From positions 1-48,443 of the forward strand of contig JAOTWP010000016.1 of NCBI GenBank assembly GCA_029862975.1: a DNA stretch of 48,443 nucleotides. Direction: 5' to 3'. This DNA comes from Acidobacteriota bacterium (GTDB taxonomy: Bacteria > Acidobacteriota > Thermoanaerobaculia > Multivoradales > JAHEKO01). The notes below the pieces were generated by a model. That model ran no database searches, was not told the origin of the DNA, and saw only the letters and a list, made by a program, of their open reading frames with translations. A program made the position numbers and the translations under genes. Below, piece after piece: positions 28,503 through 47,506 of this stretch; the first letter of the stretch is position 1; every line of letters begins with the position of its first letter.

Positions 28503-29951
28503 TCAGGGCACGGTGCTCGACCAGGCCGACGTGTCGCCGCTCTCGAAGCCGTCGGCGAAGATCTCGGGGGTGTAGCCCATGAACACCCTGGTGCCGGTGC
28601 AGGTGCCGATCCACAGATCGAGGGCGCCGTCGTTGTTGATGTGCAGGGCCTCGACGTCGAACGTGCCTTGGAGGGTCCAGGGGCGGCTGGCGCCGCCGAG
28701 AGGGTCGGAGTAGGTGATGGCGGGCGGCGTGCCCACGCCCCTCAGGAGCGTGAGCTGGCGGCTGCAGCCCGGGATGTCGGTGTCGACGTCCGCGACGAGG
28801 ACGTCGAGGATCGTGTCGCCGTCGAGGTCCGCGAACTTCACGTTGCCGCCGAAGAAGCTCGTGTTGGGGCTGTTGCTGACGGGTGTGGGCGTGAAGTCGG
28901 CGTGGCCCTGGCCGTCGTTGCCGGTGTTGACGAGGTACCGGTCCTGGCCGTCGTCGACGACGAAGAGATCGAGCCGGCTGTCCTGCGTGAAGTCGGCCGG
29001 CTCCGCCATGTAGGGCGCCAGCGTGTAGACGGTGTCCATGAAGACGAAGTGGCCGGTGCCGTCGTTGTAGAGGATGGAGACGGCCGGGGCCGGGCCGGAG
29101 CCCTCCGGGGCGTCGCCTTCCGGGCCGGACGCCCGCCGCGCGGCGAGCTCGCCGGTACCGCTCGAGTTGTTCTTGATGATGTCGAGGAAGCCGTCGCCGT
29201 TCATGTCGGCGATGTCGGCGTCCGTGCCGAAGGTGGCGTCGACCATCATGGGAGTCAGGCGCCGCGTCGTCTCGTCGGTGAAGAAGCCCGCGCCGTTGTT
29301 GATCAGGAGGCGGTCCTCCATGTCGTTCTGGTAGTCGGTGAAGTAGAGATCGGGCCGGCCGTTGCCGGTGACGTCGCCGACGCCGAGGCCGCAGAACTTG
29401 GGCCCGTTGCCCGTCGGCGACTCGAGGAAGGGCAGCCGGAGCGGCTCGTACACGAAGCCCTGCCAGACGCCCGCGGACTCGCCCTGGTTCATGAGGATCC
29501 GCGGCTGCTCGCCGAAGGTGCCGCTCGTCACGATGTCGAGCCAGGTGTCGCCGTCGACGTCGGCCAGCTCCACGTCGCGGTCGTCCGTCGCGTCGAGGAA
29601 GTCGGGCGCCAGCGTCGCCGTGCGGTCGGTCATCACGCCGTTCTCGTTCATGAAGAGGACGTTGCGGAAGCCGCCCGGGTTGGTGAACGGGATCTTGCGC
29701 ACGACGATGAGGTCGGTGTCGCCGTCCTTGTCGACGTCGCCGGAGGTGATGTCCTTTTCCCGGATGTCGTTGATGCCGACCTCGGGATCCGAGACGATGC
29801 GGGTGCTCGTCTCGTCGACGAAGGTCACCCAGTCGCCCGCCAGGGCGGCGCCGGGGAGGATCAGCCCCGCGGCGAGAAGGAGGGCGAAGGCGCTCGGCAG
29901 CGCGGCGGAAAGGCCCTTGCGGACCGAGGGACGGCTCTTGTTGGACGGCAC
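28503..29951 (-). CDS. Secreted FG-GAP/VCBS repeat protein with C-terminal FESGDTSxWS tag
   Basis: 482 aa from GTG 29951, with AAGGAG 8 nt upstream. A signal peptide spans about 15-38. At least six FG-GAP/VCBS blades carry the Asp-rich calcium loop: DVDKDGDTDL, DVDGDTWLDI, DVTGNGRPDL, DMNGDGFLDI, DLDGDTILDV and NNDGALDLWI. It is thus a likely seven-bladed integrin-like propeller. It ends IFADGFESGDTSAWSSTVP, the tag shared with four other genes here. It converges on the sigma-54 activator gene with 6 bp between stops. Ligand and role are unknown. Confidence 0.85.
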   Translation of the reverse strand: MPSNKSRPSVRKGLSAALPSAFALLLAAGLILPGAALAGDWVTFVDETSTRIVSDPEVGINDIREKDITSGDVDKDGDTDLIVVRKIPFTNPGGFRNVLFMNENGVMTDRTATLAPDFLDATDDRDVELADVDGDTWLDIVTSGTFGEQPRILMNQGESAGVWQGFVYEPLRLPFLESPTGNGPKFCGLGVGDVTGNGRPDLYFTDYQNDMEDRLLINNGAGFFTDETTRRLTPMMVDATFGTDADIADMNGDGFLDIIKNNSSGTGELAARRASGPEGDAPEGSGPAPAVSILYNDGTGHFVFMDTVYTLAPYMAEPADFTQDSRLDLFVVDDGQDRYLVNTGNDGQGHADFTPTPVSNSPNTSFFGGNVKFADLDGDTILDVLVADVDTDIPGCSRQLTLLRGVGTPPAITYSDPLGGASRPWTLQGTFDVEALHINNDGALDLWIGTCTGTRVFMGYTPEIFADGFESGDTSAWSSTVP

Positions 29952-30061
29952 GGGCGAGGCTCCTTCGGGTAGATCGGGTCGACGAATCGCGACTCCGGGT
30001 GGACTCTCTCCGCGGCAGGAGGCCTGCCCCTCGGGGTCGGGCGTGCCGGCGGCGATGGCGT

Positions 30062-30067
30062 ATTATA
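30062..30067 (-). promoter_or_regulatory. Possible -10 element (TATAAT) for the FG-GAP gene
   Basis: A perfect TATAAT on the minus strand, rare in this GC-rich sequence, about 110 nt before GTG 29951. No good -35 is visible 16-18 bp upstream, so the call is tentative. Confidence 0.3.
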
Positions 30068-30116
30068 CGGTGATCGCGGCGTTGGCCGGCAAGGCGCCGG
30101 CAGGTATGGCTCCTGG

Positions 30117-30154
30117 ACCGTTCCGTCGCACCGCACACCGTTCCGACCGTTCCG
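30117..30154 (+). repeat. Three direct repeats ACCGTTCCG upstream of the cytochrome c peroxidase gene
   Basis: ACCGTTCCG occurs at 30117-30125, 30137-30145 and 30146-30154, that is with 20-bp and 9-bp periods, 50-90 bp before ATG 30204. Position and repetition suggest an operator. Confidence 0.4.
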
Positions 30155-30203
30155 GCGCAGCCGGGTCCAACGACCACGACATCAGGTAGGGATTCGAACC
30201 TCG

Positions 30204-31937
30204 ATGAGTCAGCCCTCGCAACCGCTCCTCCGCCACGCGGCTCTGGCCGCGGCCCTCGTCCTCCTGCCGCTGACCGCGCGAGCGCAGCTGCCGCCGCCGC
30301 CCGAGCCGCCCGGCAATCCCGTGACCGCCGCCAAGGTCAACCTCGGCAAGGTGCTCTTCTGGGACGAGCAGATCTCGTCGACCCGCACCGTCTCGTGCGG
30401 CACCTGCCACCTCCCGGAGGTCGGTGGCGAGGACCCGCGCTCGGGGGTCGATCCGCTGGCCGTCAACCCCGGACCGGACGGCGTCTTCGAGACCCTCCCC
30501 TGCGCGCCGGCCGACCCCGTGTGCGACGACGTCTTCGGCTCCCCGGGCGTGCCCTTGAGCGGGGCCGACGGCCTCTACGACTGGAGCACCCACTTCGGCC
30601 TCCTGCCGCAGGTGACGCGGCGCAAGACGGTCTCGTCGATCAACGCCGGCTACTCGGACACTCTCTTCTGGGACGGCCGGGCGCCGGAGGTGTTCGTCGA
30701 CCCGGTGACGATGAACGTGGTGCTGCCCAGCGGCGCGGCGCTCGAGAGCCAGGCCGTAGGGCCGCCGACGAGCGACGTCGAGATGGGCCACGTGGACCGG
30801 GTGTGGACGGACGTGCTGGCGCGGATCGACGCCTCCGTGCCCCTCGCCCTCTCCCCCGAGGTGCCGGCGGATCTGCTCGCCTGGATCGGCGGCCGCAGCT
30901 ACGCGCAGCTCTTCGCGGAGGCGTTCCCCTCCGAGGGGATCACGGCGCCGAACGTCGCCATGGCGATCGCCAGCTACGAGCGCACCCAGTTCACCAACCA
31001 GAGCCCGTTCGACGACTTCATCGGCGGCGACAACGACGCGATGACCGCGCAGGAGATCGCCGGCCGCGGCGTCTTCACCGGCGCCGGGCTGTGCGACAAC
31101 TGCCACCAGAACGCGCTGATGAGCGACAACACGTTTCGCTACACCGGAGTGCGGCCGCAGGACGAGGACCAGGGCCGCATGGAGGTCACCGGCGATCCCC
31201 TCGACGAGGGCCAGATGCGGGTTCCCAGCCTGCGCAACCTCGAGCTGCGCGCGCCCTACATGCACAACGGGCGCTTCGCGACGATCGAAGAGGTCATCGA
31301 GTTCTACGACCGCGGCGGCGACTTCACCGGCTCGAACCTCGATCCCTCGATCCAGGCGCTCGAGCTCACGCAGCAGCAGAAGGACGACCTGCTCGCCTTC
31401 CTCACCCGGCCGCTGACGGATCCCCGGCTGGCCGCGGGGGAGTTCCCCTTCGACCGGCCGACGCTCTACACGGAGTCCTCGCGGGTGCCGGTGATCGAGG
31501 GCGCCGGGCTGCCGGGCAGCGGCGGCCTCGTGCCCGAGGTCGTGGCCCTCGAGCCGCCGCTCGTCGGCAACCCCAGCTTCACGGTCGGGGTGTGGAACGG
31601 GCTCGGCGGCGCGGACGCCTGGCTGCTCATCGACGACCAGGACCCCGGCCTGACGCGCCCCGGCACCGCCGACTTCCACATCGAGATGATCTCCCTCGAC
31701 GGCGCCGGAGAAGGCGACGGCTTCGGCTCGGTGAGCATCCCGATCCCGAACGACCCGGCGCTCGCCGGCAAGGAGTGGTTCGGCCGTTGGTACGTCATCG
31801 ACACCGGCGGCGGCTCGGACGAGGCGGTCAGCAAGGTCTTCCGCTTCAAGACCTTCGAGATCCAGCAGCAGACGGCGATCTTCGCGGACGGCTTCGAGTC
31901 CGGCGACACGTCGGCCTGGTCGGCGACCGTCCCCTGA
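30204..31937 (+). CDS. Di-haem cytochrome c peroxidase (MauG/CcpA-like) with C-terminal extension and tag
   Basis: 577 aa with a signal peptide (about 10-28, ARAQ). Two c-type haem sites are present: C65GTCH69 and C297DNCH301. The typical N-terminal NLGKVLFWDEQIS and the mid-section WDGRAPE place it in the bacterial di-haem peroxidase family. The peroxidase region ends near 400 (LLAFLTRPLTDPRL). A further 150-residue beta-rich domain follows (SFTVGVWNGLGGADAWLLID), then the tag IFADGFESGDTSAWSATVP at the very end. The family is usually about 330-400 aa, so the extension is additional. It probably reduces H2O2, or oxidises a protein partner, in the periplasm or at the surface. The start has only a weak SD. 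Confidence 0.9.
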   Translation: MSQPSQPLLRHAALAAALVLLPLTARAQLPPPPEPPGNPVTAAKVNLGKVLFWDEQISSTRTVSCGTCHLPEVGGEDPRSGVDPLAVNPGPDGVFETLPCAPADPVCDDVFGSPGVPLSGADGLYDWSTHFGLLPQVTRRKTVSSINAGYSDTLFWDGRAPEVFVDPVTMNVVLPSGAALESQAVGPPTSDVEMGHVDRVWTDVLARIDASVPLALSPEVPADLLAWIGGRSYAQLFAEAFPSEGITAPNVAMAIASYERTQFTNQSPFDDFIGGDNDAMTAQEIAGRGVFTGAGLCDNCHQNALMSDNTFRYTGVRPQDEDQGRMEVTGDPLDEGQMRVPSLRNLELRAPYMHNGRFATIEEVIEFYDRGGDFTGSNLDPSIQALELTQQQKDDLLAFLTRPLTDPRLAAGEFPFDRPTLYTESSRVPVIEGAGLPGSGGLVPEVVALEPPLVGNPSFTVGVWNGLGGADAWLLIDDQDPGLTRPGTADFHIEMISLDGAGEGDGFGSVSIPIPNDPALAGKEWFGRWYVIDTGGGSDEAVSKVFRFKTFEIQQQTAIFADGFESGDTSAWSATVP

Positions 31938-31989
31938 GGCGAGCCGCCACGGCCGCCCGGCAGCGGCGAGGCGCCGATCCTCTCCCCGC

Positions 31990-33675
31990 TCAGGGTCGGA
32001 GGGTGACGCCGGACGAGGGCGCCGCCGGCATGACGAGCAGTCGGTCGCGAGGAGCGCCGTCGAGCTTGCGGACGGTGCCGTCGGGCCAGCGGACGCGCAC
32101 CGTGAGCTCGGCGGCGGGCTCGCTTCCGAGGCCGAAGTAGGCGTCGGTGGCGTCGACGGACTGGTAGCTGCCGCCGCCAGTGATCCATCGCCGCTGGGCT
32201 CCGGCCGGCGTCTCGAGCTCGACGAGGCTGCCGGTCGCGTGGAGGTTGCCGGCGTCTCCCCGGAGACCAACGGCGAGGGAGGGGGCGGGCCCCGAGTCGT
32301 TGAAGAGGGCCAGCACCGGCCCGTTGAGGGTCGTCATCAGGACGTCGACGTCGCGGTCGCCGTCGAGGTCGCCGAAGGCGGTGGCGCGGCCGTGGTAGCG
32401 CTCCTCGCACCACGGGGCGGCGCAGCCCGCCGGCTCGAACCGGCCCCGGCGGCGCTCGAGCACGAGTGGCCGCTGGGCCCAGGCGGCGCCCACCTGGGGG
32501 TCGTCCATCTCCGGATAGACGTGGCCGCCGGCGACGAACAGGTCCTCGTCGCCGTCGAGGTCGAAGTCGTAGAAACCGCAGCCCCATCCCAGGTGCGGGC
32601 GGCTGCTCGCGGCGACCCCGAACTGGGCCGAGCGGTCGTCGAAGAAGCCGTCTCCGAGGTTCAGGTGGAGGGTGTTGGTGTCGTCGGAGAAGACGCTGAT
32701 GAAGAGGTCGGGGTCGCCGTCGGCGTCGACGTCGGCCGGGGCGATGCCCATCGTGGCCTGCGTCGTTCCCGCGCCGTTCGCCGCGACCCCGGCGACGGTC
32801 GCCGACTCCTCGAAGACGAGCTCGCCGCGATTGTGGAACAGGTGATCCTCCGTCGAGTCGTTGCCCACGAAGACGTCGGGCCGGCCGTCGCCGTCGAAGT
32901 CGAGGACGCGCACGCCCAGCCCGTAGCCCGGTCCTCCCGGCGGCAGGATGCCCGCCGCGGTAGTGGCGTCCCGGAAGCGGCCGCCGCCGAGGTTCTCGAA
33001 GAGGGCGTCCGGCTGCGGGTCGAGCCCGCGCGGCCCGGCCATCACGGGGACGCCCTTGAAGGCGTTGCCGGCCCGCTCGGGAGGGTGCGCGGCGTCGAAG
33101 GCGAGGTAGTTGACGACGTAGAGGTCGAGATCGCCGTCGCCGTCGAGATCGGCGAAGGCGGCGCTCGTCGACCAGCGGGGGTCCGCGACCCCCGCCTCGC
33201 TCGCCACGTCGACGAAGCGCCTGCCGCCGCCGGCGGCGGCCTCGTTGCGCAGCAGCGCGTTGGCGCCGTAGCAGGTGACGTAGAGGTCGTCCCAGCCGTC
33301 GCCGTCGTAGTCGCCGACCGCCGCTCCCATCGCCCAGCGAGTGAGCGTGAGGCCGACCTGGCGGGTCACGTCCGCGAACGTCCCGTCGCCGCGGTTGGCG
33401 TAGAGGCGCGACCCGGGGCCGAGCTCGGGCGCGGCGAGGGTCGCGCCGTTGGCGAGGAAGACGTCGAGGTCGCCGTCGCCGTCGTAGTCGAAAAGAGCGA
33501 TGCCGCCGCCGTTGACCTCGAGGATCTCGCGGCTCGGCATGCCGCCGCTGGTCATCACGAGATCGAGTCCCGCCGACTTCTCGGCGATCGTGAAGCGGAT
33601 CGCCGCCTCGCCGCCGGACGGGCCGAGCGCGCCGGCGACCAGCGCCGCCGCCGCCAGGGCCGGTCGTCTCCTCAT
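31990..33675 (-). CDS. CRTAC1-family secreted protein (FG-GAP propeller plus ASPIC/UnbV domain)
   Basis: 561 aa from ATG 33675; a longer open frame to 34269 only shadows the TPR gene. A signal peptide spans about 5-24. Repeated FG-GAP calcium loops (YDGDGDLDVF, YDGDGWDDLY, LDGDGDLDLY, FDGDGRPDVF, VDADGDPDLF, LDGDEDLFVA, LDGDRDVDVL) form the propeller. The C-terminal ASPIC/UnbV domain shows VRWPDGTVRKLDG. This architecture is common in Acidobacteriota and Planctomycetota, often next to TPR genes, as here (32 bp to the TPR gene, same strand). It has no tag. Role unproven. Confidence 0.9.
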   Translation of the reverse strand: MRRRPALAAAALVAGALGPSGGEAAIRFTIAEKSAGLDLVMTSGGMPSREILEVNGGGIALFDYDGDGDLDVFLANGATLAAPELGPGSRLYANRGDGTFADVTRQVGLTLTRWAMGAAVGDYDGDGWDDLYVTCYGANALLRNEAAAGGGRRFVDVASEAGVADPRWSTSAAFADLDGDGDLDLYVVNYLAFDAAHPPERAGNAFKGVPVMAGPRGLDPQPDALFENLGGGRFRDATTAAGILPPGGPGYGLGVRVLDFDGDGRPDVFVGNDSTEDHLFHNRGELVFEESATVAGVAANGAGTTQATMGIAPADVDADGDPDLFISVFSDDTNTLHLNLGDGFFDDRSAQFGVAASSRPHLGWGCGFYDFDLDGDEDLFVAGGHVYPEMDDPQVGAAWAQRPLVLERRRGRFEPAGCAAPWCEERYHGRATAFGDLDGDRDVDVLMTTLNGPVLALFNDSGPAPSLAVGLRGDAGNLHATGSLVELETPAGAQRRWITGGGSYQSVDATDAYFGLGSEPAAELTVRVRWPDGTVRKLDGAPRDRLLVMPAAPSSGVTLRP

Positions 33676-33707
33676 CTCGGGTCCATGGGAAGCCGGGCGA
33701 CTCCGGC

Positions 33708-34556
33708 TCAGCCCGGCAGCCGGCCGGCGCCGGGCGCGGGTCCCGCCTTCGCCGCCTCGAACCGCCGCCGCGCGTCCGCGGCGCCCTCCTCGTCGCCCAG
33801 CCGCTGGAGGACGCGGGAGAGGGTGAAGAGCGCGTCGCCCTCGTCCGGGACGAGCTCGAGGGCCAGCTCGAGCTCGCGCCGCGCCGCCGGGAGATCGTCG
33901 AGCCTCAGGTACAGGTCGCCGAGACGCGCGCGAGCCCGGCCCGCCATGGGCGGATCGTCCTGCGCGACGGCCAGCTCGAGGGTCGTGGCGAGGTGCCGCC
34001 GGGCGCCGTCGATCTCGTCGCGATCGAGGTCGATCAAGCCGAGGGCGTAGTGGGCGGCGGTGTAGTCGGGCTTCACCGCGAGCAGCGACTCGAACATCTC
34101 CTCGGCCTCGTCGAGCCGGCCGAGAGAGTAGAGGCTCCACCCGTAGGGCGGCCGCGCGGCGATCTCCTGGGGGTCGGCCGCCAGCGCCCTGGCAAAGAGC
34201 GTCGCGGCGACCTCGAAGCGGCTCTCCTTGTAGTAGGTCAGGGCAAGCAGCGCCGTCGCCCGCGCCCACCCCGGGTGCGCCTCGACGATGGGCGCGAGCC
34301 GCGCCCGCGCCGCCCCGTTGAGCCCGGCGTCGATCAGCTCCTTGCAGCGCGCCATCTCGCCCGGCGGCGGCAGCGGCGCGGGGGGCGAGGGCGTCTCGGC
34401 GGACCGCGTCTCGTCGGACTGCGTTTCTGCGAGCCGCGTTTCCGCCCGGAGCTCCGCCGGCCCGGTCTGACCGGCGGCCGGCGCGGTCGCGGTGGTCGCG
34501 AGGATCGACGCCAGCAGGATGCCGGTCGCCGAGACAAGACGCGCTCGGAGCTCCAC
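33708..34556 (-). CDS. Exported TPR protein paired with the CRTAC1 gene
   Basis: 282 aa. A signal peptide (about 10-29) is followed by a low-complexity Ala/Glu/Thr segment (RAETRLAETQSDETRSAET). From about 70 to 270 there are five or six tetratricopeptide repeats, for example YSLGRLDEAEEMFESLLAVKPDY and DLPAARRELELALELVPDEG. It is a scaffold for protein-protein contacts in the periplasm. It lies upstream of and on the same strand as the CRTAC1 gene, so the two are probably one operon. Confidence 0.82.
   Translation of the reverse strand: MELRARLVSATGILLASILATTATAPAAGQTGPAELRAETRLAETQSDETRSAETPSPPAPLPPPGEMARCKELIDAGLNGAARARLAPIVEAHPGWARATALLALTYYKESRFEVAATLFARALAADPQEIAARPPYGWSLYSLGRLDEAEEMFESLLAVKPDYTAAHYALGLIDLDRDEIDGARRHLATTLELAVAQDDPPMAGRARARLGDLYLRLDDLPAARRELELALELVPDEGDALFTLSRVLQRLGDEEGAADARRRFEAAKAGPAPGAGRLPG
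34393..34452. repeat. Four imperfect 15-bp tandem repeats inside the TPR gene
   Basis: Units gtctcggcggaccgc, gtctcgtcggactgc, gtttctgcgagccgc and gtttccgcccggagc run in register at 34393, 34408, 34423 and 34438. They encode the five-residue (A/D)ET-type repeat of the linker after the signal peptide, so copy-number change would stay in frame. Confidence 0.6.
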
Positions 34557-34599
34557 GCGAGCAGTGTATCTTCCCGCGGCTGCGGGGCCGTCGCGCTCC

Positions 34600-34917
34600 C
34601 TAGCCTCTGCGGGCGGACAGACCGATCGCTGAGAGCGCGGCCACGGCGGCGACGGCGGCGAGGATGAGCGTCATTCGCAGGTACGGCTCGCCCGCCTCGA
34701 GGCGCGCGGAGGTCAGGGCCACGAGCGTCCGGATCCACTCGAGCGTTCCGAGCAGCAGCGCGACCTGGAGGACGCGGACCGCCCAGCTCTCCCGGGCGAG
34801 GAGCAGGAACGGCGCCGCCAGAAGCACGAGCGCGATCAGCGCATGGCCGCCGCGCAGGAAGTGCGCCGCCAGGAGGAGGAAGCTGACGATCACGCCGGTG
34901 GTGCGGAGTGCGCGCAT
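34600..34917 (-). CDS. Small polytopic membrane protein
   Basis: 105 aa with four hydrophobic segments (about 7-20, 26-41, 46-60, 82-100), starting MRALRTTGVIVSFLLLAAHF. Short charged loops (LARESWAVR, EWIRTLVALTSARLEAGEPY) separate them. No enzyme motif is visible. It lies between the TPR gene and a winged-helix regulator on the same strand, with gaps of 43 and 34 bp, so all four genes from 37093 to 31990 could be one transcript. Function unknown. Confidence 0.6.
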   Translation of the reverse strand: MRALRTTGVIVSFLLLAAHFLRGGHALIALVLLAAPFLLLARESWAVRVLQVALLLGTLEWIRTLVALTSARLEAGEPYLRMTLILAAVAAVAALSAIGLSARRG

Positions 34918-34951
34918 CGAGTGATTCTACGGCGTCGGCGGCGGGAGCTCG

Positions 34952-37093: not shown

Positions 37094-37244
37094 TGCGGAT
37101 CCTCTCTATGGCGAGATTACCACCCGAGCTGCCGCGCCTCTTCGCCTGACTCGCGGAGCGACCCCTGGGCGAGGACCGAGGAATAACACAGGAAGAACCT
37201 CACGACTCCGGCCGCGTGCTCGGTGAGGATGAAGGTCCGACAGA

Positions 37245-37261
37245 GGACCCCTGAAGGGTCC
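37245..37261 (+). promoter_or_regulatory. Hairpin abutting the SD of the 177-aa secreted gene
   Basis: A perfect dyad, GGACCC-ctgaa-GGGTCC, ends 2 nt before the SD AAAGGAG (37264-37270). In RNA it would form a small stem next to the ribosome site; in DNA it could be an operator for the divergent regulator. Confidence 0.35.
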
Positions 37262-37276
37262 GGAAAGGAGTCTGCG

Positions 37277-37810: not shown

Positions 37811-37996
37811 GTCCCGAAGCGGCCGGTGGGGGCGCGCGGAGCGGGCGTTCGGGCGGCGACGCCCTCTTTCCTTTCCGCGGGCGGGGAAGGGGCTCCCGGT
37901 ATCATCGCGCCTTCGCCGGCCGTTGGAGTCGCTCGCCGCATGGATCGCTCTTTGCCCCAGCCCGCTGCCCCGGTTCACGATCGGACCGCAGCCGGC

Positions 37997-38887: not shown

Positions 38888-38926
38888 CGCGTCTGTAATC
38901 CACGAGCGTGCAGGCTTGCGCCCGTG

Positions 38927-40162
38927 ATGCGCCATCGTGCGTCTTCCGCCTTCTGGAGGGCTCTCCTCGCCGCCGCGGCGATCGGCGCCGCGGCGGCGCC
39001 CGGGCGGGCCCAGGAGATCCTCTGGTCCCGCACCTATGGCGACGCCGACGCGGAGACCGCCTGGGCGGCCGACAACACGGCGGACGGCGGATTCGTTCTC
39101 TTCGGCTACGAGGACACCGCCTCCGGTGATGATTTCCTGCTGATCAAGACCGACTCCGAAGGCAACGAAGAATGGTCCCGCACCTGGGGCGGCGGGTCGA
39201 CCGACTGGGGCTTCTCGGTGCGGCAGCTGCCCGACCAGGGGTTCGTGGTCGCCGGGATGTTCGGCACCGGCTCGCAGATCCACGACGCCTACCTGGCCCG
39301 CACCGACCCGCAGGGCAACCTCCAGTGGAGCCGCCAGTACGGCCTGCCGGCGGTCGACGAGCGGGCGCACTCTGTGTGGCCGACGGCGGACGGCGGCTTC
39401 GTCTTCGTGGGGCAGCAGCGCGTCGGCGGAGTCCCGTTCGACAGCTACGACGTCTGGCTGGTGAAGACCGATGCCTCGGGCAACATGGAGTGGGACGCCC
39501 TCTACGCCCGGGAGAGCTTCGGGAACGACATCGGCCTGGCGGTGCAGGAGACCACCGGCGGCGGGTACATCATCGGAGGGCTGACCCAGAGCTCCGACTG
39601 GGCCTGCTACCTCCTGCGCACCGACGCGATCGGCAACCTCGTCTGGGCGAACACGTACGGCGGCGGCTCCGCGGGCGGGGAGTGCAACGACGTCCTGCAG
39701 ACCCCGGACGGCGGATTCGTCGGCACCGGGTGCGCCACCCCGAGCGGCGACTGCGACGTCTTTCTCGTGCGCACGGACGCCGACGGCAACACGCTCTGGG
39801 AGAGGAACCACGGCGGTGGCGCCGACGACCTCGGACAGTCGCTACGCCGCCTGCCGGACGGCGGCTTCGCGATCGCCGGCCAGACCGGGTCCGAGGGCGC
39901 CGGGGGCTGGGACGTCTACATCGTGCGGACCGACGCCGAGGGCAACGCGCTCTGGACCCAGACCTTCGGCGGCGAATCGGACGATCGCGGCTGGCAGATG
40001 CTGCGCACGACGGACGGCCATCTGGCGGTCGCCGGGTGGTACGCGTCGCCCGGCGCGGACTGGCTCGATGCCTTGCTGATCAAGCTGAACGGCAGGACGC
40101 CGGTCTTCGCGGATGGCTTCGAGAGCGGGGACACCTCGGGATGGTCTGCGACCATCCCGTGA
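38927..40162 (+). CDS. Secreted beta-propeller protein with C-terminal FESGDTSxWS tag
   Basis: 411 aa from ATG 38927 (a GTG immediately before is also possible). A signal peptide spans about 10-30. Seven or so repeats of about 50 residues follow the pattern 'W-x-R-T-Y/W-G-G ... DGGF-V-x-G ... D-x-F/Y-L-x-K/R-T-D-x-x-G-N'. Examples are DGGFVLFGYEDT, DGGFVFVGQQRV and DGGFAIAGQTGS, each followed by a KTD/RTD-x-GN turn. It ends VFADGFESGDTSGWSATIP. The 3' end of the gene is duplicated just downstream (40217-40285). Confidence 0.82.
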   Translation: MRHRASSAFWRALLAAAAIGAAAAPGRAQEILWSRTYGDADAETAWAADNTADGGFVLFGYEDTASGDDFLLIKTDSEGNEEWSRTWGGGSTDWGFSVRQLPDQGFVVAGMFGTGSQIHDAYLARTDPQGNLQWSRQYGLPAVDERAHSVWPTADGGFVFVGQQRVGGVPFDSYDVWLVKTDASGNMEWDALYARESFGNDIGLAVQETTGGGYIIGGLTQSSDWACYLLRTDAIGNLVWANTYGGGSAGGECNDVLQTPDGGFVGTGCATPSGDCDVFLVRTDADGNTLWERNHGGGADDLGQSLRRLPDGGFAIAGQTGSEGAGGWDVYIVRTDAEGNALWTQTFGGESDDRGWQMLRTTDGHLAVAGWYASPGADWLDALLIKLNGRTPVFADGFESGDTSGWSATIP

Positions 40163-40285
40163 GCTGTCCCTCTCCCGGTCGTCGCGCCCGCTGCTGACGC
40201 ACCGGGCGCCCCAGAGCGAGAGCGGGGACACCTCGGGATGGTCTGCGACCATCCCGTGAGCTGTCCCTCTCCCGGTCGTCGCGCC
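40120..40285. repeat. 69-bp perfect direct repeat of a tag-encoding 3' end
   Basis: Bases 40120-40188 and 40217-40285 are identical over 69 bp, with 28 bp between. Copy 1 covers the last 43 bp of the propeller gene (ESGDTSGWSATIP and stop) plus 26 bp after the stop. Copy 2 has no gene attached, is offset by 97 bp (not a multiple of 3) and ends 2 bp before the stop codon of the convergent amidohydrolase gene. It is a recent duplication, or the scar of a lost second tagged gene. Confidence 0.9.
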
Positions 40286-40287
40286 GG

Positions 40288-41949
40288 CTACGGCTCCTCG
40301 TAGACGGTCGCTCCGCCGACCACCGTCCGCAGGACCCGGACCTCGGGGATCGAGGCCGGGTCGACGGCCAGCAGGTCGCGCGAGAGCACGACGAAGTCCG
40401 CGAGCTTGCCGGCCTCGAGCGTGCCCAGGCTCTCCTCCTGGAATCCGGCGTAGGCGTTGGCCGCGGTGTAGGCCCGCAGGGCCTGCTCCACGGTGACCTT
40501 CTGCTCCGGCACCCAGCCGCCGGGGTGGGCGCCGTCGGTGGTGCGGCGGGTGACGGCGGCGTAGATGCCGAGCAGCGGCTCGATCGGCGCCACGGTCCAG
40601 TCGGACCCGAAGGTGACGCGGGCGCCGGCGGCGAGGAGATCTGCGAAGGCGTAGGTCGTGCGAATGCGGTCCCCTCCGATCCGCTTCTCGGCCCAGCGGC
40701 CGTCGTCGATCGCGTGGTAGGGCTGCATCGAGGCGACGACGCCCAGCGCGGCGAAGCGGGCGATGGCGGCGGCCGAGAGATGCTGGGCGTGCTCGACGCG
40801 GAAGCGACGGCCGGCGGTGGCGTCGCCGCCGACCCGCGCGAAGGTCTCGAGCAGCCAGTCGTTCGCCCGATCGCCGATCGCGTGCACGGCGACGTGCAGC
40901 CCGGCCGCGTCGGCGCCGGCGATCCGCGACGCGAGCTCCTCGAGATCGCCGAGGGGGAAGCCGCGGGTTCCGGGGGCGTCCGCGTACGGCTCGTAGAACC
41001 ACGCCGTCGTCGACCCCAGGGAGCCGTCGACGAAGCCCTTGACGCCGCCCCAGCGCAGCCGCGCGTCGCCGCGGCCGTGGGCTTCGACGTAGGCGGCCAT
41101 CCGCCGCCAGTCCTCGAGGGGGACGAAGGAGTAGACCCGCAGCGCCAGCCGGTCCGCTGCGCGGGCGCGGCGAAAGGTCGCAAGCGAGCTCCACTCCCCG
41201 TCGCTCATGTCGTGGATCTGGGTGACGCCGGCCACCAGCGCGTGCCGCTGGGCGGCCGCGAGCGCGCGATCGAGCTCCGCCTCCGAGCGGGGCGGGATCG
41301 CGGCGGCGATCAAGGCCATCGCCGCGTCCTTGAAGACGCCGGTCGGCCGGCCGCCGGCGTCGCGCACGATCTCGCCTCCCGCGGGGCTCGCGGTCTCCGG
41401 CGTCACGCCGGCCAGGGCCATCGCCTTCGAGTTGGCCAGCGCCATGTGGCCGTCGAGGCGGGTGACGAAGACCGGCGTCTCCGGGGTGTGCTCGTCGATC
41501 CAGTCCCGGCGCGGCAGCTCGCCGCCCCAGAGCTCGTGGTCCCAGTCGCCGTTGAGGATCCAGCCGCCCGCGGGGACGGTCGCGGCGAACTCGGCGATGC
41601 GGGAGGAGAGCTCCGCCGGCGTCGCGGCGTCGCGCAGCTGCACCCCGGCGAGGCCGAAGCCGCCGGCGATGAAGTGGGTGTGGTTGTCGATGAGCCCGGG
41701 CGCGACGAACGCTCCCGCGAGGTCGATTCGCCGCGTCTCCTCAGCCGCCAGCGCCAGGACCTCCGCGTCGCTGCCCACGGCCACGAGAAAGCCGTCGCGC
41801 ACGGCCAGCGCCTGCGCCCGGGAGCCGCCGGGCACGCCGGTCCAGATCGAGCCGCCGTGGTACACGACGTCGGGACGCGGTGCCGGCTCGGGGCTCGCGC
41901 AGCCGAGCGCGAGGGCCGGCAGGAGCAGGAGCGGGCGGCGGCGGCTCAC
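40288..41949 (-). CDS. YtcJ-type amidohydrolase, predicted lipoprotein
   Basis: 553 aa. MSRRRPLLLLPALALGC17AS is a lipoprotein signal with Cys17 as acylation site, so the enzyme is probably membrane-anchored outside the cytoplasm. The metal-dependent amidohydrolase fold is marked by LIDNHTHF (His90, His92), GGVKGFVDGSLGS, the histidines in HVAVHAIGD and RVEHAQH, and GSDWTV with the catalytic Asp. The full set fits the YtcJ/exoenzyme-regulatory-like amidohydrolase 3 branch. The substrate is unknown (N-acyl amino acids or cyclic amides are typical of the superfamily). Confidence 0.9.
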   Translation of the reverse strand: MSRRRPLLLLPALALGCASPEPAPRPDVVYHGGSIWTGVPGGSRAQALAVRDGFLVAVGSDAEVLALAAEETRRIDLAGAFVAPGLIDNHTHFIAGGFGLAGVQLRDAATPAELSSRIAEFAATVPAGGWILNGDWDHELWGGELPRRDWIDEHTPETPVFVTRLDGHMALANSKAMALAGVTPETASPAGGEIVRDAGGRPTGVFKDAAMALIAAAIPPRSEAELDRALAAAQRHALVAGVTQIHDMSDGEWSSLATFRRARAADRLALRVYSFVPLEDWRRMAAYVEAHGRGDARLRWGGVKGFVDGSLGSTTAWFYEPYADAPGTRGFPLGDLEELASRIAGADAAGLHVAVHAIGDRANDWLLETFARVGGDATAGRRFRVEHAQHLSAAAIARFAALGVVASMQPYHAIDDGRWAEKRIGGDRIRTTYAFADLLAAGARVTFGSDWTVAPIEPLLGIYAAVTRRTTDGAHPGGWVPEQKVTVEQALRAYTAANAYAGFQEESLGTLEAGKLADFVVLSRDLLAVDPASIPEVRVLRTVVGGATVYEEP

Positions 41950-42110
41950 GCCGTCAGTGTAGCGCGGCGAGCAGGCTCCGCTCGCGCAGCGGCGGTCTCG
42001 TTCGTCCTGGCGCGCATCCCGTGGCGGTCGACCTCGCCTGAGCCGTCGGACGGGCCGCTCGCGGGAGCGCCGTCACGGTGGCCCCGGAGGGAGGCGTCGC
42101 CGACCCGGTC

Positions 42111-43640
42111 TCAGGGCACGGTGGCCGACCAGGCGGAGGTGTCGCCGGACTCGAAGCCATCGCTGAAGATGGAATCGGGCGGCGTGGGGTCGAGCTCGAT
42201 GGCGAAGAGGTAGGAGCGCGGATCGGCGGGCGGCGAGCCGTCGGCGACGGTGAACGTGCTGACGTAGGCGGTGGCGCCGTCCGGCGTGATGCGCGGATGG
42301 TCGGTGCCCAGGACCCGGAAGCCGGGGTAGGGGTCGCCCGGCAGGCCGACGGTCCACAGCTCCTCGCCGGTGGCGGCGGAGAAGGCCTTGACGAATCCCG
42401 GATCCCCGTAGTCCGGCACCCCCGACAGCACGAGGGTCGTGCCGTCCGGCGTCACGCTCGGGCGGTCCATGACGTAGTAGGTGGGGTTGAGCCAGCGGCG
42501 CGTGGCGGTGGCCGCGTCGACGGCTTCGAGATGCCCCGGCGTGACGACGTAGAGCGTGTCGTCCGGGCCGATCGCGAGCTCCTCCATGCCGTTGCCGTTG
42601 GCCGGATCGTAGATCCACAGCGTCTGCCCGTTGGACGGGTCGATCGCCTGCACCGCCCAGCCCGCGCTGCCGGCGAAGGAGGGCGCGTAGATCCGGCCGT
42701 CGGTGTCGAGGACCGGCTCGTGCGCGATGTCGCCGCCGAGGCCGGTGGCGAAGCGCTGGTCGCCGTCGAGGCTGAAGGCGTAGACGGGGCCGCCGCTGTA
42801 GTTGTTCTGGTGCATGTACAGCTGATCGATCGGACCGCCCGGGGTCGACGGCCCGAAGAGCACCTCGGTGCCGAACGGGCTGCCGTAGTCGTGCATCGGC
42901 GGGTCGCCCCGATTCGACCATTGCAGCGCGCCGCTCGCGGCGTCGAGCGCGAAGGCGCCGATGCCCAGGTCGAAGCCGCCGTAGACCGAGCCGTCGGGGC
43001 CGACCGTCGGCGCCACCTGGATCCCCTGGGCGCTCGGGTCCTCGAACTGCCAGAGAATCTCGCCCTGGTTGGAGATCGCCCAGAGGGTGTAGATGCTGCC
43101 GACGTAGAGCGTGCCGTCGGGGCCGGCCGTCGGCGGCGCGTACGGGTACCAGTCGACCGTCTGGATCCACAGGAGCGCTCCGTCGGGCGACAGCGCGTAG
43201 ATGAACCCGTCGACCGCGCCATTGCAGTGGAGGTAGAGGGTGCCGTCCGGCGCGAGGGCGGGCCGGTACCAGAGGTCGCTCGAGTCGGCCTCGAAGGTCC
43301 AGCGCACCCGGCCCTGCGGCTGGCGGGCGGTCACCGTGAGCGCGACCTCGTTGCTCTGCTCCCCGCCGACGACCAGGTAGAGAGGGGCGGAGCCGAGCGG
43401 CGCGGCCTCCGGCACGTAGGCCACCACCCGCGAGCCGGTCCAGGTGGTCGTCAAGGCGGGTAGCCCGGCGATGAACACCTCGCCCGCGGAGCCGAAGCCC
43501 GAGCCCGAGATCGCCACGCGTCCGCTGCGCGGAAGCTCGGAGCTCTGGATGCCGGTGATGACGGGCTGGGCGGCGGCGGCGGCGGCGAGGCCGGCCGCCA
43601 GGAGGGCCGTCACGAGGATGCTCTGCGCGGACCGGGCCAT
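42111..43640 (-). CDS. Secreted IPT/TIG plus PQQ-like propeller protein with C-terminal tag
   Basis: 509 aa. A signal peptide spans about 5-24. Residues about 26-103 are an IPT/TIG Ig-like domain (PVITGIQSSELPRSGRVAIS, GSGFGSAGEVFIAG). From about 110 a PQQ/BamB-like beta-propeller follows, with repeats such as PALAPDGTLYLHCNG, PTAGPDGTLYVGSIY, PTVGPDGSVYGGFD and LAIGPDDTLYVVTPG, and W-containing strands (GALLWIQT, GEILWQFE). It ends IFSDGFESGDTSAWSATVP. Export and display at the surface are likely; the ligand is unknown. It is divergent from the GT-C-like gene. Confidence 0.85.
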   Translation of the reverse strand: MARSAQSILVTALLAAGLAAAAAAQPVITGIQSSELPRSGRVAISGSGFGSAGEVFIAGLPALTTTWTGSRVVAYVPEAAPLGSAPLYLVVGGEQSNEVALTVTARQPQGRVRWTFEADSSDLWYRPALAPDGTLYLHCNGAVDGFIYALSPDGALLWIQTVDWYPYAPPTAGPDGTLYVGSIYTLWAISNQGEILWQFEDPSAQGIQVAPTVGPDGSVYGGFDLGIGAFALDAASGALQWSNRGDPPMHDYGSPFGTEVLFGPSTPGGPIDQLYMHQNNYSGGPVYAFSLDGDQRFATGLGGDIAHEPVLDTDGRIYAPSFAGSAGWAVQAIDPSNGQTLWIYDPANGNGMEELAIGPDDTLYVVTPGHLEAVDAATATRRWLNPTYYVMDRPSVTPDGTTLVLSGVPDYGDPGFVKAFSAATGEELWTVGLPGDPYPGFRVLGTDHPRITPDGATAYVSTFTVADGSPPADPRSYLFAIELDPTPPDSIFSDGFESGDTSAWSATVP

Positions 43641-43930
43641 GGAACGCTCCTTTCCGACGGCCGGTGCGACTCGAGGCCGAGCGCGCGGCCCGTCTCTCGA
43701 GCGTAGGCTAGCCCGCGGCGGATTACAGAGAGGTGAACAGCGCTGCCGACGGTGCCTCGCTCCGGCTCAAGAGCGCGAGAGCTCCCGCGGCGCCCGGTGC
43801 CGGCGGCCGGACGCAGCGTTTCCGGCAGGTCCGCTCGGCGCGCTAGACTCGAAGGCAGGGAAAGTCGAGAGTTTGGGCGCAGGGTGCCCTTGCGGTTGGG
43901 ACCGGGAGGAGCGCCGGGAGACGCGAGAGG
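43641..43930. other. Divergent intergenic region, no gene seen
   Basis: 290 bp between two divergent starts. It must hold promoters for both, but I see no convincing -35/-10 pair, repeat or structured RNA. Open frames here are short and unsupported. Confidence 0.5.
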
Positions 43931-45415
43931 ATGAGCGAGGGGAGGCGACGGGTGGCCTGGGCGGTGCTTGCCCTCGCGCTGGCCACGCTGCCGTTCCTGG
44001 TCTCCGACTTCGTACCCTGCGTCGACCTGCCGCAGCACCTGGGCCAGCTGCGGCTGTTCGGCGAGGCGTGGCACGATCCGGCGGGGTCGCTCGAGATCCG
44101 CTGGTGGACGCCCTACTGGCTCGTCTACGCCTTCCTGGCGGTGCCGTGGCTGCTGGCGCCGCCCCTGGTGGCCGGGAAGGTCGCGCTGCTCTTGCTGGTC
44201 TGGCTGCAGATCGCGATGATCCACTTCCTGGCGGCGCGCTTCGAGCGACCCGTCGGCGGTGCCTTGCTGGCGTCGGCGTTCGTCTTCAGCCAGATCTTCT
44301 ACTGGGGATTCCTCAACTTCGCCTTCGGCTGGCTCGTCTGCGTCGGCTGGCTGCTGCTCGTGCGGGGGTTCTCGAGCGAGCGGCAGCCCTGGCGCGCCGC
44401 CCCGGTCTTCTTCGCCGCGGCGGCCGCGCTGTACTTCGGCCATGCCTTGTGGTTCGGCGCCGGAATGGCGTATCTCGCCATCGACGCGTGGCTCGCGCGC
44501 CGCCCGTGGCGCGAGCTGCGATGGCGCCTCGCCGGCGTCCTGCCCGTGCTCGTCACGGCCGGCGTCTGGTTCACCTTCTATCGCGGCTCGGTGGAGGACC
44601 GGGATCCGTCGTGGCTGATCCTGCCGCCGGAGCGCCTGGTCCCGACCTTCTTCGGGCCGGCCAGCCTCGGCGCCCTCCGCGGCCCCCTCGAGGGGCTCGT
44701 TCTCGTCGTCGCCGGGCTCTGGATTGCCGTCTCGCTGGTCGCCAACCGGCGGCAACGGTGGTGGGGGTGCGAGCCGCGCCTCGCCGCCTTCGGAATGCTG
44801 CTGCTCGCCTTCTATCTCGTGCTGCCGAACGAGTACGTCAACGCGATTCAGTTCAGCGACCGCTGGCTGCCGTTCGCCTGGATCCTGCTGCTCCTCGCGG
44901 TCGGCAGCCCCCCGCTGCGGCCCGGCCTGCGCCGGCTGGTCCCGGCCCTGCTCTTCGCCTCCCTGATGCTCGTGACGGCGAGCGCCTGGCTGCGGTTCGA
45001 GCGGGTCGAGCTCACGGGCCTCGCGGGGTCTCTGGCGGCCCTGCCACCGGAGCCCAGGGTCGTGGGGCTGTCGTACCTCGAGCGCAGCCGCTACGTCATC
45101 GGGCGGCCCTTCATCCAGCTGTTCTCGTGGAGCTACGCCTTGCGCGGCGGGAGCCTCAACTTCTCCTTCAGCGAGTTCCCGACGAGCCTCGTCGTCGACA
45201 CCCGCGGAGAGAACCCCTGGACCCAGGGGCTGGAGTGGAACCCGAAATGGGTCCGCAAGAGCGATCTTGAGCATTTCGACTTCGCGCTGGTGCAGGGGGA
45301 CGCCGCCGCGCACGCGAAGATGACGACGCTCGGCCTCCTCGAGCCGGTGACCCGGCAGGGAAGGTGGCGGCTCTACCGCGTCGAGCGGACCGCCCCCCTG
45401 GTCCCCTTGCGGTAG
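43931..45415 (+). CDS. Polytopic membrane protein, GT-C glycosyltransferase-like
   Basis: 494 aa with about ten to eleven membrane segments. After TM1 the first loop holds VPCVD32LPQH36LGQLRLFGE. An Asp plus His in the first extracytoplasmic loop is the hallmark position of GT-C enzymes that use polyprenyl-phosphate sugars. The C-terminal 90 residues are soluble (RVVGLSYLERSRYVIG ... RWRLYRVER). The Trp/Phe-rich helices and the DLPQH loop are suggestive but no family is certain. It could instead be an uncharacterised membrane protein. Start ATG 43931. Confidence 0.65.
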   Translation: MSEGRRRVAWAVLALALATLPFLVSDFVPCVDLPQHLGQLRLFGEAWHDPAGSLEIRWWTPYWLVYAFLAVPWLLAPPLVAGKVALLLLVWLQIAMIHFLAARFERPVGGALLASAFVFSQIFYWGFLNFAFGWLVCVGWLLLVRGFSSERQPWRAAPVFFAAAAALYFGHALWFGAGMAYLAIDAWLARRPWRELRWRLAGVLPVLVTAGVWFTFYRGSVEDRDPSWLILPPERLVPTFFGPASLGALRGPLEGLVLVVAGLWIAVSLVANRRQRWWGCEPRLAAFGMLLLAFYLVLPNEYVNAIQFSDRWLPFAWILLLLAVGSPPLRPGLRRLVPALLFASLMLVTASAWLRFERVELTGLAGSLAALPPEPRVVGLSYLERSRYVIGRPFIQLFSWSYALRGGSLNFSFSEFPTSLVVDTRGENPWTQGLEWNPKWVRKSDLEHFDFALVQGDAAAHAKMTTLGLLEPVTRQGRWRLYRVERTAPLVPLR

Positions 45416-45479
45416 GGCAGGGTCGCTCCGGCGGGCGCGCCGCGTAAGCGGCGGACGTGACGGCCGGGAGCGGGCCGGC

Positions 45480-46565
45480 TCAGGGGATGGTCGCCGACCA
45501 TTCCGAGGTGTCCCCGCTCTCGAAGCCATCCGCGAAGAGCACGCGGGGCGTCAGCAAGACGGGCAGCCACGCTCCGGTCGCGAGCTCCACGGCCTGCCCC
45601 AGAATCTCGCCGCGCTGGTTGATCCTCGCGACGGCCAGGAGCTGCGCGCCGGACGCCGGATCGATCAGCTCGGAGAGGAAGCGCACGCCCGTCGCCTCCG
45701 TCCAGATCCACGGGTGGGGTCCACCGGCGTCGAGATTGCCGACCACCTCGCCCCGATCGTTGATGGCGGCGGCGCCGGCTCCGCCGCCGAAGCTCCCGAT
45801 CTCGCTCATGCCGGCCGCGTCCGTGAAGAGGAACGGCACGTGGCCGTTGCCGTTGGCCTGGGCCGCTTCGCCGACGACGTCTCCAGAGCCGTTGATCGAC
45901 CAGGCCCAGGTGAGAACGCGATCGCCCAGGGGCGGCAGGGTCTCGGTGCCGAGGCCCGGCGTGTACCGGAAGGCGACGTTGGAGACGTAGTAGCCGACGA
46001 CCTGCCCCGCGGCGTTCAAGTAGGTAGCCCAGGCGTCCTCCTGGACCAGGGACATCGGCGCCCCGACCGGGGCGAAGAAGGCGTTTCTCGGCTCGGACGA
46101 GGACGGCTGCCGCGAGGTGCCAGCGACCTCGCCGCTCGCGTTGATGCCGGCGGCGTTGCTCATCGTGTCGCCGGGCAGCGTCCCGAGCATCTCAAAGACG
46201 CCGTCGGCGAGCCGCCACGCTTCGCCCCAATCGTAGCCGCCGTCGCCGACGATGACGCCGGCGTCGTTGACGTCGATCGCCCGGTAGCTCGAGAGCCCCG
46301 GCGGAGCCGGCAGCAGCTGGGTCCCGGTCGCCTCGGTCCAGAACCAGGCCTTGAGCGTCAGGGGGGAGCCCACCAGCGTTTGACCGACGACCAGGCCGGC
46401 GTTGTTGAAGCCGCTCGGGATGGTCGAGAAGGAGCCCGGAATCAGGGGCAGGAGCCGGACCGCGTACTCCGGCTCCTGCGCCCGCCCGGAGGCGCAGCAG
46501 AGCAGCCAGCAGAGAGCGAAGGCCGTAACGTGGCTGCGGCGGGAAACACGCGATCCTCGGGTCAT
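45480..46565 (-). CDS. Secreted HAF-repeat protein with C-terminal tag
   Basis: 361 aa from ATG 46565; the longer frame to 46682 lacks a signal-like start. A signal peptide, about 11-29, reads HVTAFALCWLLCCASGRAQ. Seven repeats share N-x-x-G-x-x-x-G: FNNAGLVVG, VNDAGVIVG, INASGEVAG, LNAAGQVVG, INGSGDVVG, INDRGEVVG and INQRGEILG. Each is followed by W/F-rich strands (AWFWTEATG, PWIWTEATG). This is the HAF/DUF3466-like propeller repeat. It ends LFADGFESGDTSEWSATIP. The stop region resembles that of the 38927 gene beyond the stop codon. Confidence 0.82.
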   Translation of the reverse strand: MTRGSRVSRRSHVTAFALCWLLCCASGRAQEPEYAVRLLPLIPGSFSTIPSGFNNAGLVVGQTLVGSPLTLKAWFWTEATGTQLLPAPPGLSSYRAIDVNDAGVIVGDGGYDWGEAWRLADGVFEMLGTLPGDTMSNAAGINASGEVAGTSRQPSSSEPRNAFFAPVGAPMSLVQEDAWATYLNAAGQVVGYYVSNVAFRYTPGLGTETLPPLGDRVLTWAWSINGSGDVVGEAAQANGNGHVPFLFTDAAGMSEIGSFGGGAGAAAINDRGEVVGNLDAGGPHPWIWTEATGVRFLSELIDPASGAQLLAVARINQRGEILGQAVELATGAWLPVLLTPRVLFADGFESGDTSEWSATIP

Positions 46566-46697
46566 CGGCTCTCTCCATGGGGTCCATCGCAGTTCGAGCG
46601 ACCGGCTCCGCACGAGGCTACCGGCCGCGGGGTTACGCCGCCATGACAGTCGGCGCTCTTCCCGCCGGCCGCTTCTGTTCACGGGCGCACCGTGGGA

Positions 46698-46728
46698 GTC
46701 GCGGGCCGCCTACTGCGCGGCCCGCGAC
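46698..46728. terminator. Strong 12-bp stem-loop downstream of the ICMT-like gene
   Basis: A perfect inverted repeat, GTCGCGGGCCGC-N7-GCGGCCCGCGAC, lies 90 bp after the ICMT-like stop and 130 bp before the HAF gene start, both on the minus strand. It is the longest perfect hairpin I found. No T-tract is present. Confidence 0.5.
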
Positions 46729-46818
46729 CACCTCCCCGCCGCTGCCGAGGTCGGGGTGTGCGAGGTGCTCGACTGCCTGCTCGCCTGGAAGCGGCGCCCG
46801 AGCAGCGCGGGCTTCGCC

Positions 46819-47367
46819 TCAGAACACGAACGGCACGAAGCGGCGCGTGCGCTTCATGTAGTCCCGGTACTCCTCGCCGAAGCGCGCCAGGTTCTCGAGC
46901 TCTTCGGCCTTCGCCGTCGCCGCCAGAGCCAGGGTCGCGACGGCCGCCAGTGCGAGCGTCGCGGCCGACACGGATTTCAGCACCGCGCCCCAGGTCAGGA
47001 AGAGCAGGGACGAGTACATGGGATGGCGGACGTAGCGGTAGACGCCCGTCGTGACGAGACTCTCGGTCTTCTCCCACTCGAACTCGGGTGACCCCTCGCT
47101 CGTCGGGGCGGACCCTCCGGCGCGGTGGAGGAGGACGACACCCCAGACGACGAGGACGATCGAGAGCACCAGCAAGAGCCACGAGACCAGCTGCCGCGCG
47201 CCGAGGGGGTGCGCCAGCCAGTGCGGAGCGTTGACCACGACGAGAGCGAGAATGGCCTCGAAGGCGAAGAAGCGGTAGAAGCCGTGCGAGGCAGGCCGCA
47301 GCAAGGAGCGTCGCGAGATCCAGGCGATCAGGACGGAGCCCAGGGCGAAGGCGAGGACGGAGATCAT
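46819..47367 (-). CDS. Isoprenylcysteine carboxyl methyltransferase-like membrane protein
   Basis: 182 aa from ATG 47367. Four to five membrane segments: 1-18, 31-45, 56-78, 120-135 and 138-155. The C-terminal signature is YRYVRHPMYSSLLFLTWG followed by GEEYRDYMKRTRRFVP, the S-adenosylmethionine-binding region of the ICMT/PEMT-like family. Bacterial members methylate membrane-embedded substrates, mostly unknown. It begins 7 bp after the stop of a 43-aa tag-only ORF. Confidence 0.85.
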   Translation of the reverse strand: MISVLAFALGSVLIAWISRRSLLRPASHGFYRFFAFEAILALVVVNAPHWLAHPLGARQLVSWLLLVLSIVLVVWGVVLLHRAGGSAPTSEGSPEFEWEKTESLVTTGVYRYVRHPMYSSLLFLTWGAVLKSVSAATLALAAVATLALAATAKAEELENLARFGEEYRDYMKRTRRFVPFVF

Positions 47368-47374
47368 GAGCTCG

Positions 47375-47506
47375 TCAGGGAACGGTCGCAGTCCATCCCG
47401 CGGTGTCGCCGCTCTCGAAGCCGTCGGCGAAGAGGTTCTCGCCCACGACGCAGGCCGAAGGCGCTGCGACTCCGACCCGACAGGGGGAGCGGCAGGCACT
47501 CATCAT
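47375..47506 (-). pseudogene. Tag-only 43-aa ORF, probable 3' remnant of a tagged secreted-protein gene
   Basis: ATG 47506 to TGA 47377-47375 encodes 43 residues. The last 19 are LFADGFESGDTAGWTATVP, the same tag as on five full-length proteins. The 24 residues before it contain four Cys and no signal peptide. The frame is closed by a stop at 47566-47564 and has no good SD. The most likely reading is the surviving end of a gene truncated by the divergent DUF5946 gene, whose ATG lies at 47558. A genuine tiny tagged peptide cannot be excluded. Confidence 0.6.

Follow-up and report, generated by a model that had tools for sequence, protein, structure and literature searches.

Secreted bacterial proteins of many kinds can share one short C-terminal module that is served by a single partner: PEP-CTERM with exosortase (PMC1569441) and GlyGly-CTERM with rhombosortase (PMC3237569), both from the work of Haft, are many-to-one modules of this type, and PEP-CTERM is associated with exopolysaccharide genes (PMC1569441). 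Here we analyze a stretch of 48,443 nucleotides (contig JAOTWP010000016.1 of assembly GCA_029862975.1, an Acidobacteriota bacterium of the class Thermoanaerobaculia, order Multivoradales), below called the window, in which six copies of another short tag are encoded, five of them at the ends of unrelated secreted proteins (cargos). An earlier note, made from the letters of the window alone, had drawn attention to this tag. Our comparison of related genomes suggests that it probably belongs to a natural split-domain tag-and-catcher system, in which the tag of a cargo completes a strand-less partner protein, the catcher.

The tag as a module of secreted proteins

The source genome (G000; 4.49 Mb, 309 contigs) contains 86 exact matches to the codon pattern for DGFE-x-GD versus none for the reversed pattern, and these copies yield an acidic consensus of 19 residues, [IVL]FxDGFESGDTSAWSxTVP. 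Conservation is as high outside the search pattern as within it (W in 86/86 copies, F(-2) in 85/86, the final P in 83/86), and the chain stops at the identical position after the tag in 78 of the 86. Information at codon positions 1, 2 and 3 inside the tag amounts to 1.59, 1.67 and 1.12 bits, compared to 0.33 bits upstream and 0.22 bits after the stop, where conservation is at background right away; the serine codons of the tag are varied (AGC 35, TCC 33, TCG 10). From this codon-position profile and the drop after the stop it follows that the tag is conserved as protein and not as a copied DNA repeat.

The bodies that carry the tag in G000 include propellers of the FG-GAP, Kelch, BNR, PQQ and HAF types, M36 and S8 peptidases, multicopper oxidase and di-haem peroxidase. 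Signal peptides were predicted for 61/64 complete tagged open reading frames (ORFs) versus 41/64 untagged control ORFs, by a home-made heuristic that is crude and permissive; this agrees with the earlier observation that the tag is selective for secreted proteins. NCBIfam matches of the bodies include choice-of-anchor B and Q proteins and M36 peptidase models whose names refer to myxosortase, rhombosortase or the type IX secretion system (T9SS); elsewhere, the choice-of-anchor and M36 families bear GlyGly-CTERM, MYXO-CTERM or T9SS signals. The tag itself has neither the hydrophobic transmembrane helix nor the basic C-terminal end of PEP-CTERM, GlyGly-CTERM and MYXO-CTERM, as was already noted from the window, and ends with W(S)xTVP or at W. 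No Pfam or NCBIfam model matches the bare tag. Abstracts of open-access papers yielded no relevant occurrence of the tag string, so that a prior description elsewhere is possible, and neither did abstract searches on C-terminal sorting in Acidobacteria and on natural split domains. Taken together, the data support the tag as a selective, swappable module of secreted proteins.

When the neighbors of tagged genes were clustered, no candidate machine emerged, only common genes: a dehydrogenase, a sulfatase, and pairs of Ser/Thr kinase and extracytoplasmic function (ECF) sigma factor. Genes for such a kinase and sigma factor recur near tagged genes across genomes (L125, L126, L149, L039, L187).

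Fused and strand-less forms of a jelly-roll domain

The C-terminus of choice-of-anchor B proteins (choice_anch_B, TIGR04312), whose orthologues were compared over the order, is exchanged between genera. It is the bare tag in most tag-rich genomes, including those of this genus, and in tag-poor sister genera of the family of G000 it consists of D(D/G)FESG...W followed by ~180-190 residues, the long form (G415, G414, G408, G416; L258, L260, L265, L271). Other ends are an unrelated GSCPGSVTITARN-type domain in G406 (L257) and Cys-rich repeats in the examined copies of G396 and G246 (L266, L280), which are possible alternative anchors; in G417 and G407 the chain finishes with the body.

In the alignment of long forms, the tag occupies the first ~19 residues of a domain of ~200 residues; by this homology, it is the first segment of a predicted LamG/ConA-like jelly-roll domain. 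Two long forms modelled with AlphaFold2 show a core of beta-sandwich type (predicted template modelling score 0.65 and 0.64), for which Foldseek returned laminin G and agrin (probability 1.00, E ~1e-2), as well as PL7 alginate lyase, galectin and legume lectin (E 2.6e-6 to 1e-4).

A search of the order with the same alignment also yielded small proteins that match only from about position 20 on. These are the catchers: a jelly-roll that lacks the tag segment and starts with NTSLAVTNAAAIDGNFGLEV comes immediately after the signal peptide, and the mature chain has ~190 residues. Through the homologous long forms, the catcher is predicted to share the LamG/ConA-like fold. Neither the jelly-roll nor the catcher matched a Pfam or NCBIfam family at cut-off; weak Pfam matches of one catcher were to polysaccharide lyase and CBM11, and profile searches of the PDB sequences with the catcher or the long form gave nothing significant. 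Tag-rich genomes usually have one catcher each. That of G000 lies at contig 303:46494-47081, alongside the 86 tags, and the strand-less model has two matches in this genome in total, the second being a long form on contig 99. The long-form model additionally found a solo copy on contig 239 (L054, C239:23218-23718), which, like L242/L352 of G408, is a secreted chain made of signal peptide, tag and jelly-roll, that is, a self-completed catcher.

Seventy-two non-redundant jelly-rolls were sorted by context, with the segment score deciding borderline cases, so the counts are descriptive and not a test: a tag-like segment precedes 36/38 copies embedded in larger proteins by score, and is absent from 34/34 copies placed right after a signal peptide. 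The two embedded exceptions are L310, with a diverged segment, and L210, a mis-sorted catcher; one copy, L242, combines signal peptide, tag and domain. In the long form L391 (G372), the junction reads LFADGFESGNTSAWSVTVP-KR-NALAVNAPAALLGSFGLEV, i.e., the tag end, two residues, and the catcher start. Several paired or fused jelly-rolls (L210, L214, L326, L331, L211) contain an extra repeat-like insertion of ~60 residues (CTVDDTLALT...FEAC...GATFRSGE...) between strands.

Distribution and gene pairing

Among relatives, the core [IVL]FxDGFE(S/T)GDT(S/T)xW is constant, while residues past the W are variable or missing and some chains end at the W. The tag had first been taken as strictly C-terminal; this does not hold, as it also stands directly after the signal peptide (L193, L224, L393, L396) or opens a longer domain (L133, L211, L054). 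Three of these proteins (L393, L396, L224) form a Cys-rich secreted cargo family (NCNCYFSGDC...FCNWGP) with the tag at the mature N-terminus; L393, the member tested, has no Pfam or NCBIfam match. In a survey of the phylum (396 genomes), the tag is abundant (10-111 copies) in some genera and near absent elsewhere. Named matches fall mainly within Thermoanaerobaculia, with single scattered ones in other phyla; assemblies of Peribacter, Acidimicrobiia and Chloroflexi have single internal tag cores (L132, L164, L120, L199), and no jelly-roll domain was detected there. For order-wide counts a looser pattern, FxDxFExGxxxxW, was used, which gave 1 to 155 matches in 49/72 genomes, none for the reversed control, and none in the 21 genomes of genus g3.

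The domain follows the tag closely. Within the order it was found in 43 genomes, 43/43 of them tagged, and it is absent from 23/23 tag-free genomes; over the phylum it occurs in 10/10 genomes with at least 10 tags versus 5/386 others. The ratio of tags to domains reaches 74:1 in G015, 56:1 in G152, and, by loose matches, 106:1 in G380, a genome outside the order whose single domain is strand-less. Acanthopleuribacter pedis KCTC 12899 has both a fused and a strand-less copy, with no bare tag found.

The strongest evidence for a partnership between the tag and the strand-less domain comes from adjacent gene pairs. In eight genomes (G408, G409, G413, G415, G417, G441, G198, G372), a tagged gene directly precedes, on the same strand, a gene for a signal peptide and the strand-less domain. 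In the first six of these, the mature domain starts ~75-135 bp past the tag stop, the start codon of the strand-less gene overlapping or nearly touching that stop in G417 and G413; the tagged partner is a DUF1501 protein in both members tested, and the strand-less copy of G415 has an apparent frameshift. G198 and G372 belong to another class, and here the gene of a Cys-rich cargo, whose mature form bears the tag N-terminally, is followed within a few bases by the strand-less gene. The only tag of G198 sits in this pair, and G372 has one further tag, in a fused long form.

The earlier note proposed to look for a gene family that tracks tag abundance; the small secreted strand-less jelly-roll is such a family, its occurrence and gene location tracking the tag. 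Its reading of the tag as a C-terminal sorting or anchoring signal stands in part: a selective module of secreted proteins is supported, but strict C-terminality and the supposed reader, an outer-membrane or secretion machine, are not. The tracking gene encodes a small soluble secreted jelly-roll without the tag segment, which is probably the reader.

Model and alternatives

Several lines of evidence bear on a split-domain system: the homology of the tag with the first segment of the domain, the existence of strand-less partners, their co-occurrence with tags, the fused versus split forms, and the adjacent pairs. That the tag and the strand-less domain are functional partners in some form is very probable. 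We suggest that the cargo and the catcher would be exported separately, and that the cargo tag would then insert as the absent first (edge) strand of the catcher, in donor-strand fashion, so that one lectin-like module could serve dozens of cargos; in the fused long forms of sister genera the same contact would be intramolecular. Physical strand complementation by the tag is likely. The first strand of LamG/ConA-like folds lies next to the last, which in the catcher is predicted to be SFYLDEFESFR-like; hence, the first strand is a plausible donor at an open edge, which would also explain why the tag can stand at either end of a cargo.

As to purpose, the completed lectin-like domain may tether all cargos to one shared ligand at the surface, for which a polysaccharide is the most likely candidate. 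The LamG/ConA-like fold is typical of polysaccharide binding. Tethering is proposed on the basis of the lectin-like fold, the weak lyase and CBM11 matches, and the sulfatase and glycan genes near catchers (DegT, Asn synthase, GT4, GT1, MBOAT, FkbM and epimerase at several loci), and we regard tethering to a surface polysaccharide as a tentative proposal, somewhat doubtful as yet. Docking on the scale of a proteome, with up to ~100 secreted proteins per genome and one catcher assembling extracellular enzymes on surface polysaccharide, seems to us an even chance.

Several observations weigh against this interpretation. First, six tagged genomes of the order have no detectable catcher; four of them are at most 81% complete (G411, G418, G421, G422), and the others are G402 (35 loose-pattern matches, 93% complete) and G419 (15 matches, 91%). 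Second, one of the five low-tag carriers of the domain in the phylum, G200, has a catcher and no loose-pattern tag, the remaining four (G246, G144, G198, G372) having one or two. Third, the Fisher values for co-occurrence, 1e-13 to 1e-16, ignore the relatedness of genomes; with the order collapsed to 28 genera (24/1/0/3), p = 0.0012. Fourth, AlphaFold with 4-row alignments left the tag unplaced in both long-form models (predicted local distance difference test ~30), which neither supports nor refutes a strand. Finally, 16/76 of the catcher neighbors belong to the sulfatase superfamily, a count without a random-locus baseline, so that the polysaccharide link is suggestive.

The alternative that survives best makes the catcher a periplasmic escort or secretion adaptor, which covers the tag while the cargo is exported and then passes the cargo on to a channel in the outer membrane; a permanent tether would not be involved. 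A single soluble catcher serving many cargos would suit this role, and in pilus assembly, capping through a donor strand is an established function of periplasmic chaperones. Donor-strand complementation is described in PMC6615685. However, the fused long forms keep the domain on the cargo permanently, which is needless for a transient escort, and the lectin-like fold and the glycan genes among the neighbors also speak against it; we consider such an escort unlikely.

Still less probable is a C-terminal sorting signal read by an outer-membrane or secretion machine, with a jelly-roll protein that is unrelated or just another cargo. The selective presence on secreted proteins fits it, as do bodies from the choice-of-anchor and M36 families, which have sorting signals elsewhere, but the tag is also found at the mature N-terminus of cargos and at the start of a domain, and a domain that lacks exactly the tag segment co-occurs with the tag and is encoded next to it. 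SprA of T9SS matched 0/18 genomes of the group, although 14 control genomes were also without a match, so that this search had no positive control.

The alternation of bare tag and long form between genera could also be read as repeated loss of a C-terminal jelly-roll, the tag being a vestige with neither partner nor function; this is very improbable in view of 86 copies that hardly vary as protein but differ in their synonymous codons, no match for the reversed control, up to ~155 tag-pattern matches per genome, and the retained strand-less secreted partner, which decay cannot explain. A DNA-level repeat or mobile cassette that encodes the tag incidentally, to which the local duplication of a tag end at 40215 and the orphan tag at 47378-47434 might point, has a negligible chance given the serine codon diversity, third-position variation and background conservation past the stop, and a mobile-DNA origin was ruled out by the codon diversity.

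Tagged genes of the window

All five protein ends named in the earlier note were verified as carrying the terminal tag, and a sixth tag was added (Table 1). The frame of the latter stops 7 nt upstream of the start of an ICMT-like methyltransferase gene and is probably what is left of a cargo gene that has been lost. The tag end of cargo 3 together with the next bases (ESGDTSGWSATIP*AVPLPVVAPA) has a second copy ~97 bp downstream in another frame (window 40215-40290, plus strand).

Table 1. Tag copies in the window and the genes encoding them.
Feature	Gene or frame	Strand	Tag	Tag position	Remark
Cargo 1, secreted FG-GAP protein	28503..29951	-	IFADGFESGDTSAWSSTVP	28506-28562	
Cargo 2, secreted MauG/MbnH-like di-haem peroxidase	30204..31937	+	IFADGFESGDTSAWSATVP	31878-31934	
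Cargo 3, secreted SBBP/delta-60-like propeller	38927..40162	+	VFADGFESGDTSGWSATIP	40103-40159	
Cargo 4, secreted TIG and PQQ/BamB-like propeller	42111..43640	-	IFSDGFESGDTSAWSATVP	42114-42170	
Cargo 5, secreted HAF-repeat protein	45480..46565	-	LFADGFESGDTSEWSATIP	45483-45539	likely start 46565
Orphan tag	47375..47506	-	LFADGFESGDTAGWTATVP	47378-47434	43-codon frame without cargo body

Comparison with known systems

No Pfam or NCBIfam family describes the tag or the catcher. The proposed split-domain system shares with PEP-CTERM/exosortase and GlyGly-CTERM/rhombosortase a short C-terminal module, a many-to-one partner and similar cargo, and the catcher loci seem to resemble PEP-CTERM in their link to exopolysaccharide genes. 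Unlike these systems, it lacks a cleavage motif and pairs with a soluble protein that is no protease, and the tag may be N-terminal. The C-terminal domains (CTDs) of T9SS likewise occur on secreted proteins of the M36 peptidase and choice-of-anchor families but are much longer than the tag; T9SS CTD models did not match the tag, and the full-length M36 model matches the peptidase bodies.

Cohesin-dockerin and SpyTag/SpyCatcher also combine a modular short cargo tag with a single receptor module, SpyTag being a strand split from a beta-sandwich. The present system differs from both in that its sequence is unrelated, it would be naturally split and genome-wide, and a covalent bond is unsupported. 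Pfam found no dockerin repeat in the bare tag, the sole Dockerin_1 match shown on a tagged protein lying within FG-GAP repeats.

In chaperone-usher pili, as proposed here, the incomplete beta-sandwich of one secreted chain is filled up by a strand from the terminus of another. The acceptor in the tag system, however, would be a LamG/ConA-like jelly-roll, usually encoded once and with no polymer implied, and the donors dozens of unrelated enzymes and propellers whose strand is usually C-terminal; we do not claim that the system is a member of the chaperone-usher class.

An unexplained tag becomes a two-component hypothesis, which would offer a set of tag/catcher pairs that have co-evolved in nature. 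If it is true, diderm bacteria can sort or display proteins by intermolecular domain completion, with recognition that needs no membrane anchor, protease or dedicated channel. It would also give access to the extracellular proteome of the Thermoanaerobaculia, a class that is mostly known from environmental genomes. Having the defining features of neither, the tag system resembles a cross of PEP-CTERM/exosortase and the donor-strand complementation of pili, and would be a natural counterpart of engineered tag/catcher pairs.

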